From Aquaticitalea lipolytica (GTDB lineage Bacteria > Bacteroidota > Bacteroidia > Flavobacteriales > Flavobacteriaceae), in the NCBI RefSeq assembly GCF_014641635.1, contig NZ_BMIC01000003.1, positions 186,001-250,000 on the forward strand: a stretch of DNA of 64,000 nucleotides. Direction: 5' to 3'. Positions 7,491 to 29,525 of this stretch are shown here, piece after piece (positions within the stretch are counted from its first letter, which is position 1; each line of letters begins with the position of its first letter). The notes below the pieces were generated by a model. It did not search any database. It saw only the letters and a list, made by a program, of their open reading frames with translations, and was not told the DNA's origin. The position numbers and the translations under genes are program-made.

Positions 7491-8546
7491 TTATCTAGGT
7501 ATTTCTACGGTTTCAATAATTTGTTTAATAACATCTTTGCTTGTAATGCCTTCCATTTCGCGTTCTGGTGTTACAATAACCCTATGGTGTAATACTGGTA
7601 TTGCAGCACGTTTGATGTCTTCTGGAGTCACAAAGTCGCGACCACTCATGGCAGCAAAGGCTTTACTTGCTTTAAGTATTGCTATAGATGCTCTTGGTGA
7701 AGCACCCAAATATAAAAATTGATTACTACGTGTTGCTACTATTAAATCTGCAATATATTTTAACAAATGTTCTTCAACCAATACTTGAGTAACAAGGCTT
7801 TGGTATTTCGCTATTTGTTCAGCTGTTAAAAAAGAGGTAATAGCATCGGTCTTAATTTTATCTTTTAAGTTATGCTCTCGAGTTAAAATTTCTATCTCAT
7901 CTGTTAAGTCTGGATAATCAACATCTATTTTAAACAAAAAGCGATCTAATTGAGCTTCTGGTAAACGATAAGTTCCTTCTTGCTCAATTGGATTTTGCGT
8001 TGCCAATACCATAAAAGGCGTATCTAATTTATATCGATGACCATCTATTGTTATTTGTTGCTCTTCCATTACTTCAAATAAAGCTGCTTGAGTTTTTGCA
8101 GGAGCTCTGTTAATCTCATCAATAAGAATCATATTAGAGAAAATAGGTCCTTTTTTAAATTCGAATTCGGTTGACTTTAAATTAAATACAGAAGTACCCA
8201 AAATATCACTAGGCATTAAATCTGGTGTAAACTGTATTCTACTAAACCCAACGCTTAACGATTTTGCCAATAGTTTTGCTGTAATGGTTTTTGCAACTCC
8301 AGGAACGCCTTCAATTAACGAGTGTCCTTTTGCTAGAAGAGAGGCAATTAGCATATCGACCATGTCTTTTTGACCTACAATTACTTTGCCTATTTCGCGC
8401 TTAATGTTATGTACATTATGTTGTAGCTCTGATAAATCTAAGCGATTTGTAAACTGCAAATCGTTAGTTTCAGATTGCTCAATCGCAGGTTTTGACTCTG
8501 GTTGAGGTGTGTTTTGCTGTGATGAGTCGTTGTTATGTTCTTCCAT
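7491..8546 (-). CDS. MoxR family AAA+ ATPase
   Basis: The 351-residue protein has a polar, Gln/Ser-rich N-terminal 40 residues followed by an AAA_3 ATPase domain. Walker A is GVPGVAKT (80-87), Walker B is MILIDE (139-144), sensor 1 is LATQNP (181-186) and the arginine-finger region is [10 protein letters not shown] (194-203). A lid domain ends with the MoxR-type [19 protein letters not shown] stretch. MoxR ATPases act as chaperones for vWA/DUF58 partners. The DUF58, DUF4350, DUF4129 and SpoIIM genes around it are its usual Bacteroidota context. Start and stop codons in this run are nearly contiguous, so it is one operon. Confidence 0.92.
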
Positions 8547-23634: not shown

Positions 23635-23997
23635 TTAAGCTCGTAAAATCTTTTCCATCTTACGACCTTTGGCTAATTCATCAATTAACTTATCTAAATA
23701 GCGTGCCTGTTTTGTTAAAGGAGTTTCAATATCTTCAATACGATAACCACAAATAACACCTTTAATAAGTTGTGCATTAGGGTTTAATTTTGCTTGCTTA
23801 AAAAAAGTTTCGAAGGTTGCTTTTTCTTCAATAAGAGTTTTTAGTTTTTTTTCATTAAAACCTGTTAACCATTCAATTACTTGATGTAGTTCTTCAATTG
23901 TTCTGCCTTTTTTTTCAACTTTTGTAACATAATGAGGATATACTGAAGCAAAAGTCATATTTGCAATGCGTGCATCGTGTTCTGGTGTTGTATTCAT
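23635..23997 (-). CDS. DUF2200 domain protein
   Basis: The 120-residue soluble protein matches DUF2200 across its length: [24 protein letters not shown] near the start, the Trp-Leu-Thr-Gly centre EWLTGF and the C-terminal [32 protein letters not shown]. No biochemical role is established for the family. It ends 7 bp from the tonB stop on the other strand and lies 30 bp after the DUF1801 gene, with which it is probably co-transcribed. Confidence 0.88.
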
Positions 23998-24027
23998 TAA
24001 TTGCTATTTTAATAAAATTATCATTAG

Positions 24028-24420
24028 CTATTTTAGCCTTTCTAATTTACCTTTTCGTTTTACAATATTTTTATAGTCCCATTGTATAGTTTTCGATTTT
24101 TCGAGCCATTGTTGCAATTTTTCGACATCTATTTCTGAGGCAGATTTAAAGAAAATTGATGCATCTTTAAATTTTTCACCTCTAACATTTAAATCAGTCT
24201 CTCCAAAATCAGCTCCACTCCAAAACATAAGTCGTAAACCCTTTTTTTGCTTGCTGTAACCAACAGTTGGATTATCGTTTAAAAACCAAACAGGATGAGC
24301 ATGCCAAATTTTACTATCAGCTTCAGTTAATATATTATCAATAGCAGCAGCTAGTAAATTGCAAATGTCTTTATCTGAAGACTCTAAATTGTTATTATAT
24401 GCTTTTATATCAGTATTCAT
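24028..24420 (-). CDS. DUF1801 (YdhG-like) domain protein
   Basis: The 130-residue protein has the DUF1801 pattern: the early helix CNLLAAAIDNIL, then AHPVWFLNDNPTVGYSKQKKGLRLMFWSGADFGE, and the C-terminal WDYKNIVKRKGKLERLK. The fold is the two-layer YdhG/frataxin-like type. Function is unknown. It is co-directional with DUF2200 (30 bp) and lies 43 bp after lpxD. Confidence 0.85.
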   Translation of the reverse strand: MNTDIKAYNNNLESSDKDICNLLAAAIDNILTEADSKIWHAHPVWFLNDNPTVGYSKQKKGLRLMFWSGADFGETDLNVRGEKFKDASIFFKSASEIDVEKLQQWLEKSKTIQWDYKNIVKRKGKLERLK

Positions 24421-24463
24421 TTTAATGTAAAAGCTAATTATAATATGGTTTTAGATTATAAAT

Positions 24464-25459
24464 TTATTGATTTTTTACCAATCGTCTTACAGCTACCCAT
24501 TCTTTTAGCATATCTCTAGCGTCTTGTGCAGGATAACCTAAAACAGTTTTTCCTGCTTCTACATCATTCATAACTCCAGAACCAGCTCCAACTGTTGCGC
24601 CAGAATGTATTGTGGTATGGTCTTTAATAGATGCGCTTCCTCCAATAATAACACCATCACCTAATGTAACAGAGCCTGCAAGTCCGCTATGTCCAGCCAT
24701 TATGCAAGAGCGTCCCATAATGCTATTATGTGCTATTTGTACTAAATTGTCAATCTTACAACCATCACCAATAATTGTAGAGCTAAATTTGGCTCTGTCA
24801 ACACAAGAGTTAGCGCCAATTTCAACATAGTTACCAATTATTACATTTCCAATCTGTGGTATTTTAACGAGTTGCCTACCATCTTCACTTGGTCTATAAC
24901 CAAACCCATCTGCTCCAATACTCACATTAGTATGAAAAATACAATGGCTACCTATAATACAACGTTCACGAATAATAGTACCAGACCAAACAATGGTATT
25001 GTTGCCAATTATGGTTTCGTCAAACACACAAACATTTGGGTATAAAACAACTCCATTTCCTAACTCTACATCTTTACCTATATAGCAATTTGCACCAATT
25101 TTGCAGTCTGTGCCAATTTTTGCAGTTTCATGTATAACTGCAGTTGGATGTATATTGGTGTCAAAAACAGGTGATGGTAAATTAAAAAGATCTAGCACTT
25201 TAGCCATTGCTAAATCAACATTTTTTACTTTAATAAAAGCGCGATTATCACCAGGACTGATAGTTACATTGTAATCTATAAATGCAGCACAAGCCTTTGA
25301 TTCAGCCCAAAATTTCACATATTTATTACTTCCTATAAATGTAATTTGATTACTATTTGCTTTTTGTATTTCTTCAGGACTTTCAATACTTAAGGTTGTA
25401 TTGCCTATTAATTCGCCTTTTATAATGTTGTTGATTTCACTTATTGAGTAAGATGCCAT
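24464..25459 (-). CDS. lpxD: UDP-3-O-acylglucosamine N-acyltransferase LpxD
   Basis: The 331-residue enzyme has the LpxD N-terminal uridine-binding domain (1-100), a left-handed beta helix built from hexapeptide repeats (about 100-300) and a C-terminal helix (DMLKEWVAVRRLVKNQ). The catalytic histidine is His244 in VQIAHN, equivalent to His239 of the E. coli enzyme. LpxD adds the second 3-hydroxyacyl chain, on nitrogen, in lipid A synthesis. It is not next to lpxA, lpxC or fabZ here. Bacteroidota often carry one lpxD in the lipid A operon and a second, solitary copy, so this may be the paralogue. Confidence 0.9.
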   Translation of the reverse strand: MASYSISEINNIIKGELIGNTTLSIESPEEIQKANSNQITFIGSNKYVKFWAESKACAAFIDYNVTISPGDNRAFIKVKNVDLAMAKVLDLFNLPSPVFDTNIHPTAVIHETAKIGTDCKIGANCYIGKDVELGNGVVLYPNVCVFDETIIGNNTIVWSGTIIRERCIIGSHCIFHTNVSIGADGFGYRPSEDGRQLVKIPQIGNVIIGNYVEIGANSCVDRAKFSSTIIGDGCKIDNLVQIAHNSIMGRSCIMAGHSGLAGSVTLGDGVIIGGSASIKDHTTIHSGATVGAGSGVMNDVEAGKTVLGYPAQDARDMLKEWVAVRRLVKNQ

Positions 25460-25608
25460 TTGTAGTTTAGGTATTAGTTAGTTAATTGTAAATCTAAGGT
25501 GAAAAAAGGGAAATCTATGTAGATTGTTTAATTACTTAACTAAAACTTTGCGCAATCGAGTAAATATGGTATAACTAAGTGTTTTTTTTATTCAAACAGT
25601 ATTGGTAT

Positions 25609-26076
25609 TTAGCTGCTTTTATTTTCTGCGATTTTTTTAAGTATGTTTAATGCTTTAGGCCATGATTCTTTAAAATAGTCAATGTAGTCATCCATTGTAT
25701 CCATTTCAACTTTTACGGTTGTTATACCATTACTTTCTTGAAATGAATAGTTTTCTAAACTTCCTGCCCAATTATCAACTTGCTCTCCAGAGGTTATTTC
25801 ATTGTCTCCATCAAGAATTCCGTAGTGTCTTATAGATACAAATTCATATGGTTTGTTTTCAGCAATTTCAGAAATCATTCCACCACGCTTGCCATTTTCA
25901 TCTGTTCCTGTAAAATACATTTTTTCTCCTTTTTTCCAACTGCCTTCATAAGTAGAAGTAGGGTTAAATTTAGCAGTCCATTGCTCATAAGTAGTAATAT
26001 CATTTAATCCAAGCATAGTTTCATATACTATTTTTGGTGAGGCTTTTATCTGTTCTTTAAATTCTATTTTTTTCAT
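25609..26076 (-). CDS. SRPBCC (START/Bet v 1-like) domain protein
   Basis: The 155-residue protein has the AHSA1/polyketide-cyclase type SRPBCC fold. It opens with the strand KKIEFKEQIKASPKIVYETML, followed by the YEQWTAKFNPTSTYEGSWKKGEKMYFTG region and a long C-terminal helix (IDYFKESWPKALNILKKIAENK). Such proteins bind hydrophobic ligands; no catalytic assignment is possible. It is probably monocistronic. Confidence 0.85.
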   Translation of the reverse strand: MKKIEFKEQIKASPKIVYETMLGLNDITTYEQWTAKFNPTSTYEGSWKKGEKMYFTGTDENGKRGGMISEIAENKPYEFVSIRHYGILDGDNEITSGEQVDNWAGSLENYSFQESNGITTVKVEMDTMDDYIDYFKESWPKALNILKKIAENKSS

Positions 26077-26119
26077 GTGTTTAGATTTTAATTATACACG
26101 TTTTTGGGATTACTAGCTT

Positions 26120-27181
26120 TTATAATTGTATTTTATTTCCACTTAATGTACCTCTAAAGAATTGATTGTTTTCAATAAATAGAATCTCTCCGTATTCGCC
26201 TTTTTTAATACTAGAATCTACACCAAAAATTTTATTATTATATAATTGAACAATCTCATCATTTGAACAATGCCCAACAATAATATGTTTTGAATCTAAC
26301 AGTTTCAATATTTTTGAAATATCTGAATCTAATAAACTATCATAAAAATAACCTCGATACCATATCAAACTTTTGCTACCATAATAAGTGTCATAAAAAT
26401 TGGTCGACTTCATTTCTTGTTTAGTTCGATCAATAGATTTTCTCATTATATCGTTTACTTTTTCAAAATTAAAATCAGTATCAGCTATAAAATCTTCGGA
26501 AATGCCACCATGAACAAAAACATATTCATTTATTTTAATAATTGTTGATTTTGAGCGTAGCCATCTTCCAAGAATAGTTTTTGTACTGTACAATTCATTA
26601 TACTCCAAATTCAGTAATTTAGAAGTTAATTCGTATTTTTTACTTAAGTATCTTAGGTCTTTATGAAGAATCATATATTCATGATTTCCAAGAAGAAAAT
26701 GTACATGACCTCCTTTGCTTTTTGCTTGAGCTTCGAGTTTATAAACCAGCCAAAGCATTTCATTAACTTTATCGCCTCTGTCAAAAATATCTCCAGTAAT
26801 TACCAAATGACCTTTTCCAAAATTCCAATTTAGATTCTTGTCAATTACTTTATTGATTTTTAATATCTCAATTGCTAAGTCATATTGTCCATGAATATCA
26901 CTTAATGCAGCGATATTTTGTACGTCATTAAAAATGGATTTTTCAGGAGAGTATATTGTGTCGAATGAATTGATTTTTAAAAGCCTTGAGAAAACTTTAC
27001 CATTTATTATTGTTTTTTCAACTAGTTTGTCTTTTTCAATAAAAATATATGGACCATCGGAAAATTTAGAAAACTCCGATTGTTCATTTTTAATGCTATC
27101 TTTTTTGTTTTCAACTTCTTGGCTAAAGGCTGATGAAGTTGAGATGATTAAAATTATTAGATATAAAGAGCTTTTAATCAT
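26120..27181 (-). CDS. Periplasmic metallophosphoesterase, PPP-type phosphatase-like
   Basis: The 353-residue precursor has a signal peptide (about 1-20). The calcineurin-like motifs are complete and in order: SDIHGQ (Asp95, His97), GDIFDRGD (130-137), LLGNHEYM (164-171), FVHGG and IIVGHCSND. GDxxDRG with GNHE is the signature of the PPP Ser/Thr phosphatase branch, including Shewanella-like phosphatases, so dephosphorylation of proteins or small phosphoesters in the periplasm is likely. A degenerate 91-bp intergenic repeat lies 21 bp upstream of its start, in a stretch that looks accessory. Confidence 0.85.
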   Translation of the reverse strand: MIKSSLYLIILIISTSSAFSQEVENKKDSIKNEQSEFSKFSDGPYIFIEKDKLVEKTIINGKVFSRLLKINSFDTIYSPEKSIFNDVQNIAALSDIHGQYDLAIEILKINKVIDKNLNWNFGKGHLVITGDIFDRGDKVNEMLWLVYKLEAQAKSKGGHVHFLLGNHEYMILHKDLRYLSKKYELTSKLLNLEYNELYSTKTILGRWLRSKSTIIKINEYVFVHGGISEDFIADTDFNFEKVNDIMRKSIDRTKQEMKSTNFYDTYYGSKSLIWYRGYFYDSLLDSDISKILKLLDSKHIIVGHCSNDEIVQLYNNKIFGVDSSIKKGEYGEILFIENNQFFRGTLSGNKIQL

Positions 27182-27201
27182 TTGTCTTTTGCTTTTGATT
27201 A

Positions 27202-27292
27202 TTACGTATTTATTTATGGTTGAGTACTAATTTAGTAAATAAAATCTACGAGACACAAGCAATTACTTATAACCATTATTAGTAGTAGCTCT
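27202..27292 (-). repeat. Degenerate intergenic repeat, copy 1 (cassette-like)
   Basis: This 91-bp element shares with 28390-28457 a perfectly identical 20-mer (27226-27245, ACTAATTTAGTAAATAAAAT) and a 19-mer with two mismatches (27257-27275, AAGCAATTA.TTATAA.CA). TATGGTT, TTA(G)CGT and GCTCT at the edges match too, all in the same order and orientation. The 20-mer starts with the palindrome ACTAATTTAGT. The two copies flank the propeller lipoprotein gene. Confidence 0.75.
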
Positions 27293-27303
27293 TTTTTTAT
27301 TTG

Positions 27304-28353
27304 TCATTTTTCAAATTTCACAAAAGCTGTTCCATTGAATTTAAACACTCCATTTTCGTGTGTTCCAAGCCAAAGTTCGCCATTGTTATCTTTGTAAATA
27401 CTAAATAAAGTAATGTCTTTTGAATTATTTTGAACTGGATAATGCGTAATTTTTGTTCCGTCATATTTCCAAACGCCATTACGATAGGTTACAAACCATA
27501 AATTGTTATTATTGTCTGTTACTGTTGATAGATACTCATCCAAATCGCTGTCCTTTTTCCCATCTAAACCACCTATGCTTTCGTGTCTTGTGTAAAGTGT
27601 CTTGTTTTTTAATGTTGTGCTATCGTAAACACTATAACGATATTCAGTATTGAACCAAAAGTCGCCATTTTTGTCTTCAGTAATTGAACGCACTCCGTTT
27701 GCACCTTCGTTGCGAAATTCTGTTACATCTTCTTCTGTAATCCATTCAAATGATTTTCCGTCATAACGACAGACACCAGATGGATTTGTACCAAACCAAA
27801 TGTTTCCTTTTTTGTCTTTATAAATGCTATAGATTCCAAAAGGATTGGAGAGGTTGGGTGGTTTAGGCAACTGTAATTCATGTAAAGTAATGCCATCATA
27901 ACGATACACTTTGTTCTCAAATTCATAAGAATGTCTAAACCATAAATCATCTGATTGAAGTTGCCATTCAATACTCGGAATTGCGGTTAATGTAGTAAAA
28001 TTATGTCCATCAAACTTAACAATTGTTGAATTGGGATAACAGCTATTAAAATATATGTTGCCCAATTTATCTTCTTTAATTTCGTCAATTCTGTTGCTTG
28101 GTAAACCGTGTTCAGTCGTAAAATTTGTGAATGATTTTCCGTCATATTTATACACGCCATTATCCCAACTTCCAAACCAGTACATATTATTCTTGTCTTG
28201 ATGAATAACCATAATATTATTTCCAAGTTCTGTTACAGTATCGCCTTTTACAATGTTGTCTGTTTTAACGTGTTGTTTAGTGGTTTGTCCATTACAAGAT
28301 GTTAATAAAACCAATGCGTTGAAAAATGTAAATATGCTCAATTTTATAGTCAT
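27304..28353 (-). CDS. Lipoprotein with two-component-regulator-type beta-propeller repeats
   Basis: The 349-residue precursor has a lipoprotein signal (lipobox LLTSC, Cys20). The mature part holds about six to seven propeller blades, each with a variant of (N/G)xxWFGTxxxGVxxYDGKxF (for example MYWFGSWDNGVYKYDGKSF, IWFGTNPSGVCRYDGKSF, LWLGTHENGVFKFNGTAF). These repeats usually form the periplasmic sensor of hybrid histidine kinases, but here there is no kinase, only the propeller. The gene is a single-ORF unit between two same-direction repeat copies, suggesting acquisition as a cassette. Ligand and partner are unknown. Confidence 0.82.
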   Translation of the reverse strand: MTIKLSIFTFFNALVLLTSCNGQTTKQHVKTDNIVKGDTVTELGNNIMVIHQDKNNMYWFGSWDNGVYKYDGKSFTNFTTEHGLPSNRIDEIKEDKLGNIYFNSCYPNSTIVKFDGHNFTTLTAIPSIEWQLQSDDLWFRHSYEFENKVYRYDGITLHELQLPKPPNLSNPFGIYSIYKDKKGNIWFGTNPSGVCRYDGKSFEWITEEDVTEFRNEGANGVRSITEDKNGDFWFNTEYRYSVYDSTTLKNKTLYTRHESIGGLDGKKDSDLDEYLSTVTDNNNNLWFVTYRNGVWKYDGTKITHYPVQNNSKDITLFSIYKDNNGELWLGTHENGVFKFNGTAFVKFEK

Positions 28354-28389
28354 CTGTTTGAAGTTTGTACTGTTGTCATGGAGTAACAG

Positions 28390-28457
28390 TTAGCGTGTTT
28401 TGTATGGTTAACTAATTTAGTAAATAAAATGAAGCAATTAGTTATAAACAGCGCTCT
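28390..28457 (-). repeat. Degenerate intergenic repeat, copy 2 (cassette-like)
   Basis: This 68-bp copy has the identical 20-mer at 28411-28430, the 19-mer partner at 28432-28450, TATGGTT at 28403-28409 and GCTCT at 28453-28457. Compared with copy 1 it lacks an internal segment of about 11 bases between the two conserved blocks, and it is shorter between the second block and GCTCT. Confidence 0.75.
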
Positions 28458-28466
28458 AGTAAGAAT

Positions 28467-28886
28467 TTATTTCACTATATTATTTATCAGAGTCAGAATA
28501 TATTCCGCATTAAACGTTTTTATTTTTTTATTCAATTCGTTAATATCTTTTTGTTCAACTTTTCTTAAATTCAGTTTTTCACAAATTCCATCTATAATAT
28601 CAATATAATCTAAATCCTCAATTCCATATATTTTATGTAAATCATCTTCAGGGTAAATTGAGAAGTCGTCCATTTGTATAAATTCTTGAATTTTGTCATA
28701 AACAACTTCGACGTGTATTTTATCAAATCCTTTTTTACTAAGTCGGTTTATATATTCAGAACGAGTGAGATTTGGTCGACTTTCATTTAGTTTCTGCAAC
28801 TTTTTCTCGTTCATTTTATTTTTAATACTACTAAAAATTAGCATTAAAAAAAAGACTGTTCCAATTATGAATAGCGTTTTGTTCAT
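28467..28886 (-). CDS. Membrane-anchored acyl-carrier-like protein, unknown function
   Basis: The 139-residue protein has one N-terminal membrane helix (about 4-20), a basic linker and a helical C-terminal domain (about 55-139). The domain has the outline of an acyl carrier protein: helix I VEVVYDKIQEFI, then DDFSIYPEDDLHKIYGIEDLDYIDIIDGICEKLN. Where ACPs have the DSL phosphopantetheine serine, this protein has DLDYID, so it cannot carry the prosthetic group at that place. Similar ACP-fold proteins of unknown role occur in polymorphic and accessory regions. It is not a confident family assignment. Confidence 0.6.
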   Translation of the reverse strand: MNKTLFIIGTVFFLMLIFSSIKNKMNEKKLQKLNESRPNLTRSEYINRLSKKGFDKIHVEVVYDKIQEFIQMDDFSIYPEDDLHKIYGIEDLDYIDIIDGICEKLNLRKVEQKDINELNKKIKTFNAEYILTLINNIVK

Positions 28887-28912
28887 ATTGAGTAGAACTA
28901 ATTATATACCAA

Positions 28913-28920
28913 CAAATATA
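28913..28920 (-). promoter_or_regulatory. -7 box upstream of the ACP-like gene
   Basis: TATATTTG on the minus strand matches TAnnTTTG and lies 26 bp upstream of the start at 28886. No clear TTG -33 element is visible. Confidence 0.4.
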
Positions 28921-28970: not shown

Positions 28971-29525
28971 TTACTTCCACTTTATGTTACAACCAATACT
29001 AGGTTTTTGCATTTCAGTTATGGGTTTATTGCTCAATAAAGCTTCTAGAGTATTACGTATATCTTGTCCTGTTACTGGCAATCCATTTCCTGGTCTAGAA
29101 TCGTCTAACTGTCCTCTATACACCAATGCTAAATCCTCATTAAACACATAAAAATCTGGTGTGCAAGCAGCATCATAAGCCTCAGCAACTTCTTGAGTTT
29201 GATCGTATAAATACGGAAAAATAAAACCTTGTTCTATAGCATTTTGTTTCATTAAGTGAGGAGCATCTTGAGGATAATTTTCTACATCATTACTAGAAAT
29301 AGCTACAAAATTTACACCTTTAGATTTGTAGTCTTTTGCTAATTGTGCTAACTGTTTATTTACATGCTTTACAAATGGGCAATGATTGCATATAAACATA
29401 ATAACGGTAGCTTTTAAACCCTTAACTTCTTGTAAGGCGAGCATTGTGTCGCTTACAGTATCTAATAATTTAAAATCTGGTGCTGTGGTGCCTAAAGGCA
29501 ACATATTTGATGGAGTTTGAGCCAT
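28971..29525 (-). CDS. Thioredoxin-fold protein, AhpC/TSA-like with CxxC
   Basis: The 184-residue cytoplasmic protein has a thioredoxin fold of the peroxiredoxin-like type: GTTAPDFKLLD, VIMFICNHCPFVKHVN with Cys46-Asn-His-Cys49, FVAISSND and ACTPDFYVFNEDLALVYRGQLDD with the conserved cis-Pro. The CNHCPFV motif marks a bacterial subfamily of thioredoxin-like proteins of unknown substrate. A disulfide reductase or redox-buffer role is inferred. It is divergent from csaA, with 38 bp between start codons. Confidence 0.87.
   Translation of the reverse strand: MAQTPSNMLPLGTTAPDFKLLDTVSDTMLALQEVKGLKATVIMFICNHCPFVKHVNKQLAQLAKDYKSKGVNFVAISSNDVENYPQDAPHLMKQNAIEQGFIFPYLYDQTQEVAEAYDAACTPDFYVFNEDLALVYRGQLDDSRPGNGLPVTGQDIRNTLEALLSNKPITEMQKPSIGCNIKWK

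Follow-up and report, generated by a model that had tools for sequence, protein, structure and literature searches.

Bacteroidota appear among the phyla listed with integrons in a review (PMC8618304), and a Tenacibaculum genome paper reports no integrons by IntegronFinder (PMC10013915). The strand of the attC site bound by integron integrases is the bottom strand (PMC3053210). An integron survey kept only matches holding the additional domain of IntI (PMC2426708), and its reference list includes a paper whose title calls this domain necessary for activity. In a classification of tyrosine recombinases the insertion is described as not fully conserved in the integron-like subgroup, yet essential for integron function (PMC8138268). 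Integron surveys and IntegronFinder searches of this kind would miss cassettes moved by a system that does not bear the marks of IntI. Here a widespread integron-like system of Bacteroidota is described from sequence comparison, without bench evidence; its putative recombinase is missing the very domain regarded as the hallmark of integrons. Among the entries listed in searches of the open-access literature none described such a system; subscription journals and preprints were not covered.

The locus lies in a stretch of 64,000 nucleotides, referred to as the window, where a run of genes follows a redoxin gene. The features are as follows.

29525-28971, minus strand: redoxin gene, with its stop at 28971
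28895..28920, minus strand: attI-like site heading the run of units, TATATTTGTTGGTATATAATTAGTTC, between the redoxin stop and the ATG of the ACP-like gene
28467..28886, minus strand: first unit, a 139-aa protein with no Pfam match (membrane-anchored and ACP-like are labels of the first-pass annotation)
28391..28457, minus strand: element 2, putative decayed attC-like element upstream of the propeller gene
27304..28353, minus strand: propeller lipoprotein, putative cassette cargo, with Reg_prop repeats (Pfam PF07494)
27202..27292, minus strand: element 1, putative decayed attC-like element following the propeller gene and preceding the phosphoesterase
26120..27181, minus strand: calcineurin-like phosphoesterase (Pfam PF00149), probable cassette cargo
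26088..26109, minus strand: perhaps what is left of a third element (its left half), AACGTGTATAATTAA, following the phosphoesterase gene, identified by eye
25609..26076, minus strand: co-oriented single gene, 155 aa, no Pfam match
24464..25459, minus strand: LpxD-like acyltransferase gene (Pfam PF04613/PF00132) in the co-oriented run, cassette status not shown
24028..24420, minus strand: DUF1801 gene (Pfam PF08818) in the co-oriented run, cassette status not shown
23635..23997, minus strand: DUF2200 gene (Pfam PF09966) in the co-oriented run

The first-pass annotation had placed the units on one common strand, which stands with the correction that the minus strand is the direction of reading. 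The propeller lipoprotein also gives a part-match to PorZ that is far under the cut-off of that model (NCBIfam). By eye, the junction of element 2 would fall at 28395/28394. The possible remnant at 26088..26109 was missed by the covariance model described below, and no recognisable elements are present between the genes from 23635 to 26076. The attI-like site carries one mismatch to a 26-base consensus, which was written after the sites of relatives had been seen, and is its sole match in the window at up to three mismatches; shuffled windows gave a mean of 0.06 matches, with a match in 6 of 100 shuffles.

The two elements flanking the propeller gene had been reported to share an identical 20-mer (27226-27245 and 28411-28430) and a 19-base block with two mismatches (27257-27275 and 28432-28450), together with a set of edge words in the same order and orientation, and all of this was confirmed. 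A 22-base pattern around the 20-mer, allowing three mismatches, occurs only at these two places in the 64 kb, two matches being reached in none of 100 shuffles, and three further clear copies were found elsewhere in the window's genome with a pattern taken from the 20-mer. A BLASTN search of that genome with an 80-nt window element returned mostly chance matches, and patterns and a covariance model were used instead. Rfam at its gathering thresholds gave no match in the window. The best covariance-model matches of the pair are partial (18.9 bits, E 0.07, and 15.8 bits, E 0.4); only the 20-mer part of both elements still fits the family model, neither has kept an apical hairpin, and the two ends of the propeller unit itself do not complement each other. 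Judged by its sequence the pair represents decayed copies, weak as they are, of an attC-like site of about 125 bp, and the unmatched ends of the propeller unit are read as decay after loss of the integrase. The window repeats are very probably decayed attC-like sites of an integron-like gene-cassette system, for which no recombination has been observed.

The 20-mer pattern matched in 18 of 60 genomes, some of these matches not being elements. Alignment of 30 copies gave a consensus with NNNNNYAAC-(3 nt)-GTGTATAATTAATTGC as its 5′ part, then a variable centre with its own hairpin, and CTAAATTAGTTGCTTAAACAC-GCAACTAACCATACAC-(about 6 nt)-GTTRNNNNN as its 3′ part. The inner stem shows double changes in six of its 13 pairs; 96.4% of its cells are paired, compared with 86.5% after shuffling and 18-52% when slid, and 30 cells carry double changes, compared with 8.8 in shuffles. 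A further measure of covariation, the number of further pair types, gave no excess over shuffles (7 vs 7.6). With the covariance model, made mostly from relatives' copies, the scoring of 150 of 3455 candidates in the window's genome gave at least 40 sites at E ≤ 1, and at least 97 and at least 33 were found at E ≤ 0.01 in two relatives. The first-pass impression that further copies stand between different single genes was borne out, with at least one site at E ≤ 1e-8 in at least 80 of 100 genomes of the family, each from another genus. All of these counts are lower bounds obtained with strict filters, and the family is taken to be Flavobacteriaceae by inference from named loci. A model built from the family's own sites (R1) matched in 7 of the 39 named loci searched. 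The core motifs of integron attC sites are not met, RYYYAAC being present in 7 and GTTRRRY in 8 of 193 sites; the relaxed cores YAAC and GTTR are present in 178 and 166 of them.

The observation that bears most directly on gene movement is the relation between the two ends of a unit. In 124 of 170 units the start is the reverse complement of the unit's own end at five or more of six variable positions, the other 46 failing this cut. The two flanks of one and the same site, used as a control, match that well in only 15 of 193 cases and shuffled pairs in 4.5%; over the six positions the mean match is 4.75, compared with a mean of 2.0 and a highest mean of 2.29 in 1000 shuffles. The match usually extends nine bases from GTT, forming a stem whose sequence differs from cassette to cassette. 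Repeated cassettes are counted among the 170 units, and the 124 matched ones represent 102 different sites. Sites were sampled to about E 5e-4, one set to E 0.0011, leaving out weaker matches, opposite-strand shadows, overlapping parts of loci and the isolated L087 and L088 sites, as well as an other-strand match (L142:3952-4075, E 7e-4) about 5 kb from an array. Matched ends of this kind are, on sequence evidence, the expected signature of circularising cassettes and constitute the decisive test of the cassette reading.

The arrangement of the units is of the same character. Neighbouring sites within 5 kb lie on the same strand in all 173 cases. Matched units have a median length of 671 bp, and the longest open reading frame is in the sense direction in 111 of 124, starting a median of 29 nt from the unit start, so that mostly a single co-oriented frame is carried per cassette, as the criterion for integrons has it. 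Large arrays are found in G015, for example at 2.215-2.263 Mb and 2.724-2.792 Mb, where nine cassettes, counted as copies at least 95% identical, recur in 31 of 91 complete units, units of unfetched stretches not being counted. One 558-bp cassette is present 13 times in two arrays of one chromosome, including three tandem pairs (L079-L083, L132 and L142). With itself counted as a neighbour, it has 11 different contexts upstream and 11 downstream, and its sequence stays the same as far as CAC|GTT at one end and from GTT onwards at the other. Cassette boundaries resolve only to within CGTT, and at the G035 attI to the base before G, consistent with G^TT. The gain or loss of a gene with exactly one repeat, put forward as a check in the first-pass annotation, is therefore seen with exact ends in the arrays of this relative. 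These array features are what integron cassettes show, as far as the analysis goes, and the reaction itself is not thereby shown.

A few units are of interest in their own right. Next to the integrase of G035, a unit of about 6 kb (L134:5180-11310) with matching ends GTTGTATGCC / GGCATACAAC holds an HTH gene, two cytosine-methyltransferase-like genes and a gene for a 1061-aa protein; judged by eye and without a family search, the whole unit looks like a defence system in the form of one cassette. Inside a cassette array of G015 (C1:2765942-2766760, L080) there is a second gene for a tyrosine recombinase, with a 427-aa frame. Chains of end-matched units are also present in L306 (Anaerolineales), L316 (Calditrichia) and L298 (Bacteroidetes GWF2); L306 and L316 group with IntI in the tree and L298 was not placed. 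A generic scan for 9-mer chains over the named loci, from which these chains come, also gave chains in some reversed controls and was not relied on.

Tyrosine recombinase genes stand at the heads of arrays in G015 (390 aa) and G035 (305 aa), and in G001, of the same genus as the window, a recombinase of 391-408 aa is followed by an attI-like site and then by the end of the contig. With a profile of these three, 33 of 37 family genomes gave scores of 180 bits or more, G006 and G007 with two such matches each; a group below these, at 156-169 bits, was taken for XerC/XerD and the like. Eleven of the recombinase genes lie within about 1 kb of a contig end with their 3′ side outward, as expected before a repetitive array. 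Behind the recombinase stop codon two types of attI-like site were recognised, TATATTnGTnnnnATATAACnA|GTTR and a palindrome such as AATAAACACA..TGTGTTTAT..|GTTR, and by eye one or the other is present in 19 of 28 loci, meeting the integron criterion of an attI site. The pattern of one type is found directly behind the integrase tail in 11 loci and elsewhere in four (the window, two leaders and L183); no attI was found in L177-L179, relatives matched by the integrase profile. Behind the integrases, 11 of 20 stretches hold same-strand sites and one (L199) an other-strand site, and in the remaining eight, four of them under 3 kb, there is no site. Loci L167, L176 and L210, which could not be parsed, are not included. 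In G035 the first cassette, behind the integrase, has a copy deep in the array behind an attC, and the sequence the two have in common begins exactly at the G of GTT. Among named genomes, which include Zunongwangia, Winogradskyella, Seonamhaeicola, Flavobacterium aciduliphilum, Algoriphagus, Aquiflexum, Rufibacter and Pontibacter, an end-matched first unit lies behind the integrase in 13 of 18 loci, 42-214 nt from the recombinase match, compared with 105 of 920 random starts; the other five have no matched first unit. This test drew on 24 Bacteroidota-like loci of at least 80 named, which include plain Xer-like proteins, and six of the 24 had under 1.5 kb downstream. The criterion of a tyrosine recombinase gene next to the array is met in these 13 of 18 first-unit loci and 11 of 20 stretches.

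Two explanations without site-specific movement of genes by this recombinase have to be considered here. The first, that the repeats are a shared regulatory element or a terminator or RNA-stability hairpin between unrelated genes, is compatible with their intergenic position and their folding, and since no Rfam family explains the window an undescribed one is possible. The shared regulatory element had been offered as an alternative in the first-pass annotation; the explanation as a whole is extremely unlikely, as it leaves unexplained why a unit's start is complementary to its own distant end, why 13 copies of one gene have sharp, exactly recurring junctions amid changing neighbours, and why units set in immediately after a recombinase. 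REP and MITE families typically place hairpin-bearing repeats between genes, and repeats of the transposon or REP/MITE kind, moved by a Y1 or DDE transposase and bracketing genes by chance, would fit the sites in that respect. The ends of a MITE are constant, however, whereas here they are private to a unit and complementary across a gene; neighbouring sites also keep to one strand without exception, and the arrays follow a tyrosine recombinase and an attI-like site, so that this explanation can scarcely be entertained at all. The recombination site carrying genes, similar to an integron attC, that had been suggested from the window alone is supported, and its reading as a cassette was largely right; what changes is that the pair is decayed and is part of a longer run headed by an attI-like site.

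The type of the recombinase is less easily settled. The best NCBIfam match is the XerA-like model (214-218 bits, cut-off 220), and the integron model TIGR02249 scores 185.9-207.3 bits in all three recombinases, its cut-off of 265 not being reached. The same model is over its cut-off in 84 of 296 Bacteroidota genomes; of 86 genomes of the phylum with any match to it, the window's class accounts for one and its order and family for none, and at least 20 genomes of the family are among those of the phylum without a match. The alignment to VchIntIA (2A3V) breaks over chain residues 203-246, and KDR and HxLRH stand 61-63 residues apart in 16 of the 17 rows (47 in L260), compared with 103 in rows of the IntI group (three of six rows measurable). 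In its aligned sequences the recombinase lacks the IntI additional domain, and by length 16 of the 17 aligned members have an extra N-terminal part. A structure model (mean pLDDT 81.5, pTM 0.55) matches XerA and IntI structures. Its N-terminal extra domain, of about 80 aa and with a pLDDT of 91, has no significant relatives in the PDB; the idea that it might be HARP-like is unsupported, the best fold match being XPB at E 0.26.

A first tree left the new type unresolved against IntI. In a wider tree it forms its own clade (97/93) apart from IntI, with weak deeper forks, and an AU test did not reject IntI and the new type as one clade (p 0.098). It remains conceivable, at somewhat less than an even chance, that the system is a canonical integron by ancestry, a divergent member of the IntI/attI/attC type that has lost the additional domain. 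This would be compatible with the mechanism proposed below, and the shared architecture and junction, the unrejected single clade and the scores that TIGR02249 still gives all point towards it; the failure of these scores to reach the cut-off, the absence of the additional domain, the rarity of both full core motifs and the separate clade point away. With similar reserve, the arrays may instead be a second integron lineage of the Bacteroidota, with a XerA-like founder independent of IntI, no helix of the kind with which IntI reads extrahelical bases and a strand choice based on G.T pairs that arise solely on the bottom strand, in which one integrase could serve several attI-headed arrays in trans.

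In the window's genome itself the profile found no intact recombinase of this type. A C-terminal integrase remnant with an attI-like site behind it lies on another contig, C5; four opposite-strand genes and one more precede the first site there, after which come mobile mystery proteins A and B and then a second site. Across the whole genome the attI pattern, at up to two mismatches, matches exactly on C5 and in the window and also at C1:447853 and C3:127645, a reversed control giving two matches to these four; a fifth variant lies at about C3:171756. A pattern built from the window itself was not counted as evidence. All four attI-like sites outside the window are 0.7 to 3.2 kb upstream of a same-strand group of sites. 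Several attI-headed runs without an integrase thus remain in this genome, one of them held by the window, and the criterion for CALIN, arrays without a functional integrase, is met. At C1:447853, C3:127645 and C3:~171756 (L340, L341 and L086), none of which has an integrase, a leader of about 150 bp, TTACGTAGTTnTACGTATnGGAAAT ... ATTCCTGTTATCCCTTTATTA, stands just before the attI-like site; this shared leader may be a unit of promoter and attI that has spread by copying to several positions.

None of the seven genes at 23635-28886 was found in 18 loci around the redoxin gene of relatives (tblastn, 1e-6). In the genome of the same genus the redoxin gene is followed by a 138-aa ORF and then tonB, and in G010 it adjoins tonB, which is not near redoxin in most of the 18 loci. 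At the window, gain or loss of a gene with its repeat is accordingly met only in a looser form, the run being absent at this place in the same-genus genome, where the propeller gene lies on another contig; no clean one-unit difference was found at the window's place. Redoxin and integrase genes are 1.8 kb apart in G013. That the window attI lost its integrase from just this spot is not claimed, because two opposite-strand genes separate the two in G013.

The propeller gene, called an orphan in the first-pass annotation, has homologues. One, 74% identical, is on that other contig of the same-genus genome (G001) directly behind a site of the family (45.5 bits), and by eye the propeller unit starts of the two genomes align; another (41%) is a complete cassette in G035 with the start GTTGTAAGC and a matching end. 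The phosphoesterase has a 68% identical homologue in an array region of G035, between the sites L140:5174-5279 and 7704-7828, for which matched ends were not seen, and the DUF2200 gene one (64% identical) that is a complete end-matched cassette in G033, whose start, GTTAGCACC, is the reverse complement of its end, GTTAGCACC. At a fifth homologue match (propeller, 24%, L048) there is no element, and the other four window genes have no homologue in the fetched loci. The search covered only loci already fetched, which are array-rich and mostly near sites. The nearness of homologues to sites is for this reason partly built in; their matched ends are not. These homologues bear on the possibility that the window pair has nothing to do with the family-wide site and arose by local duplication or merely looks alike by chance, for which the weak model scores and the non-complementary ends of the propeller unit could be cited. 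Against this, the two elements rank first and second among all model matches in the 64 kb, the 5′ end of the same gene has such a site elsewhere in the same-genus genome, a homologue is an end-matched cassette in G035, and the window has an attI-like head. Such a coincidence is very unlikely, and the pair is better regarded as decayed sites of the cassette system.

The first-pass suggestion that the sites depend on folding is in keeping with the predicted folds, which also indicate a preferred strand. In 105 of the 124 matched units the end stem has A.C at position 11 of the top strand, which becomes G.T on the bottom strand; counted over positions 4-12, G.T pairs number 123 on the bottom strand and four on the top. 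When the folding of the circular DNA is predicted, the bottom strand comes out ahead in 116 of 124 units and 95 of 102 different sites, with mean energies of -25.2 and -21.5 kcal/mol for bottom and top, an average gap of 3.7 kcal/mol. Recombination by way of the bottom strand may thus be proposed from a preference found only in silico, folding in vivo being inferred.

The intact system, as seen in other genomes, has its own tyrosine recombinase, as a rule a single one in each genome; an attI-like site comes next, and behind it an array of mostly single-gene cassettes that share one strand. The circular cassette, or its single bottom strand, would fold into a hairpin with the cassette's own two ends as outer stem and GTGTATAATTAATTGC / GCAACTAACCATACAC as inner stem, and the choice of the bottom strand may be aided by the A.C mismatches of the top strand turning into G.T pairs below. 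The recombinase would cut at GTT, with exchange of attC x attC or attC x attI. The reaction itself, single-strand folding in vivo and the role of this recombinase as the agent are inferred; the repeats, the arrays, the matched ends, the exact recurrent junctions, the attI-like sites, the linked recombinase, the wobble asymmetry and the homologues of window genes in cassettes of other genomes, on which they rest, can be read directly from the genomes. If the proposal is correct, a large share of the accessory genes in Flavobacteriaceae and other Bacteroidota would lie in large unrecognised cassette arrays, and the need of the IntI domain for cassette recombination would become testable through a natural exception.

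Set beside the described systems, the arrays most resemble a sedentary chromosomal integron, with which they share the recombinase gene, the attI-like site, co-oriented and mostly single-ORF cassettes with complementary ends, a crossover at or next to GTT, an imperfect palindrome of about 125 bp and a predicted preference for the bottom strand. They differ from it in the recombinase, which is of a new type without the IntI additional domain and in 16 of 17 members has the extra N-terminal part, and in the end stem, which is variable and of about 9 bp rather than RYYYAAC/GTTRRRY. The recombinase gene also points towards the array, with attI behind its 3′ end, and the window's genome has several runs with an attI head. 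With CALIN the system shares arrays that have no integrase nearby, which is the state of that genome, although here they can keep an attI-like head. The closest solved sequences and folds are those of XerA / XerC-like proteins (5hxy and 4a8e), and the spacing from KDR to HxLRH equals that of the archaeal rows. In the trees the new type is separate from XerC/XerD of the same genomes, and it is linked to cassette arrays.
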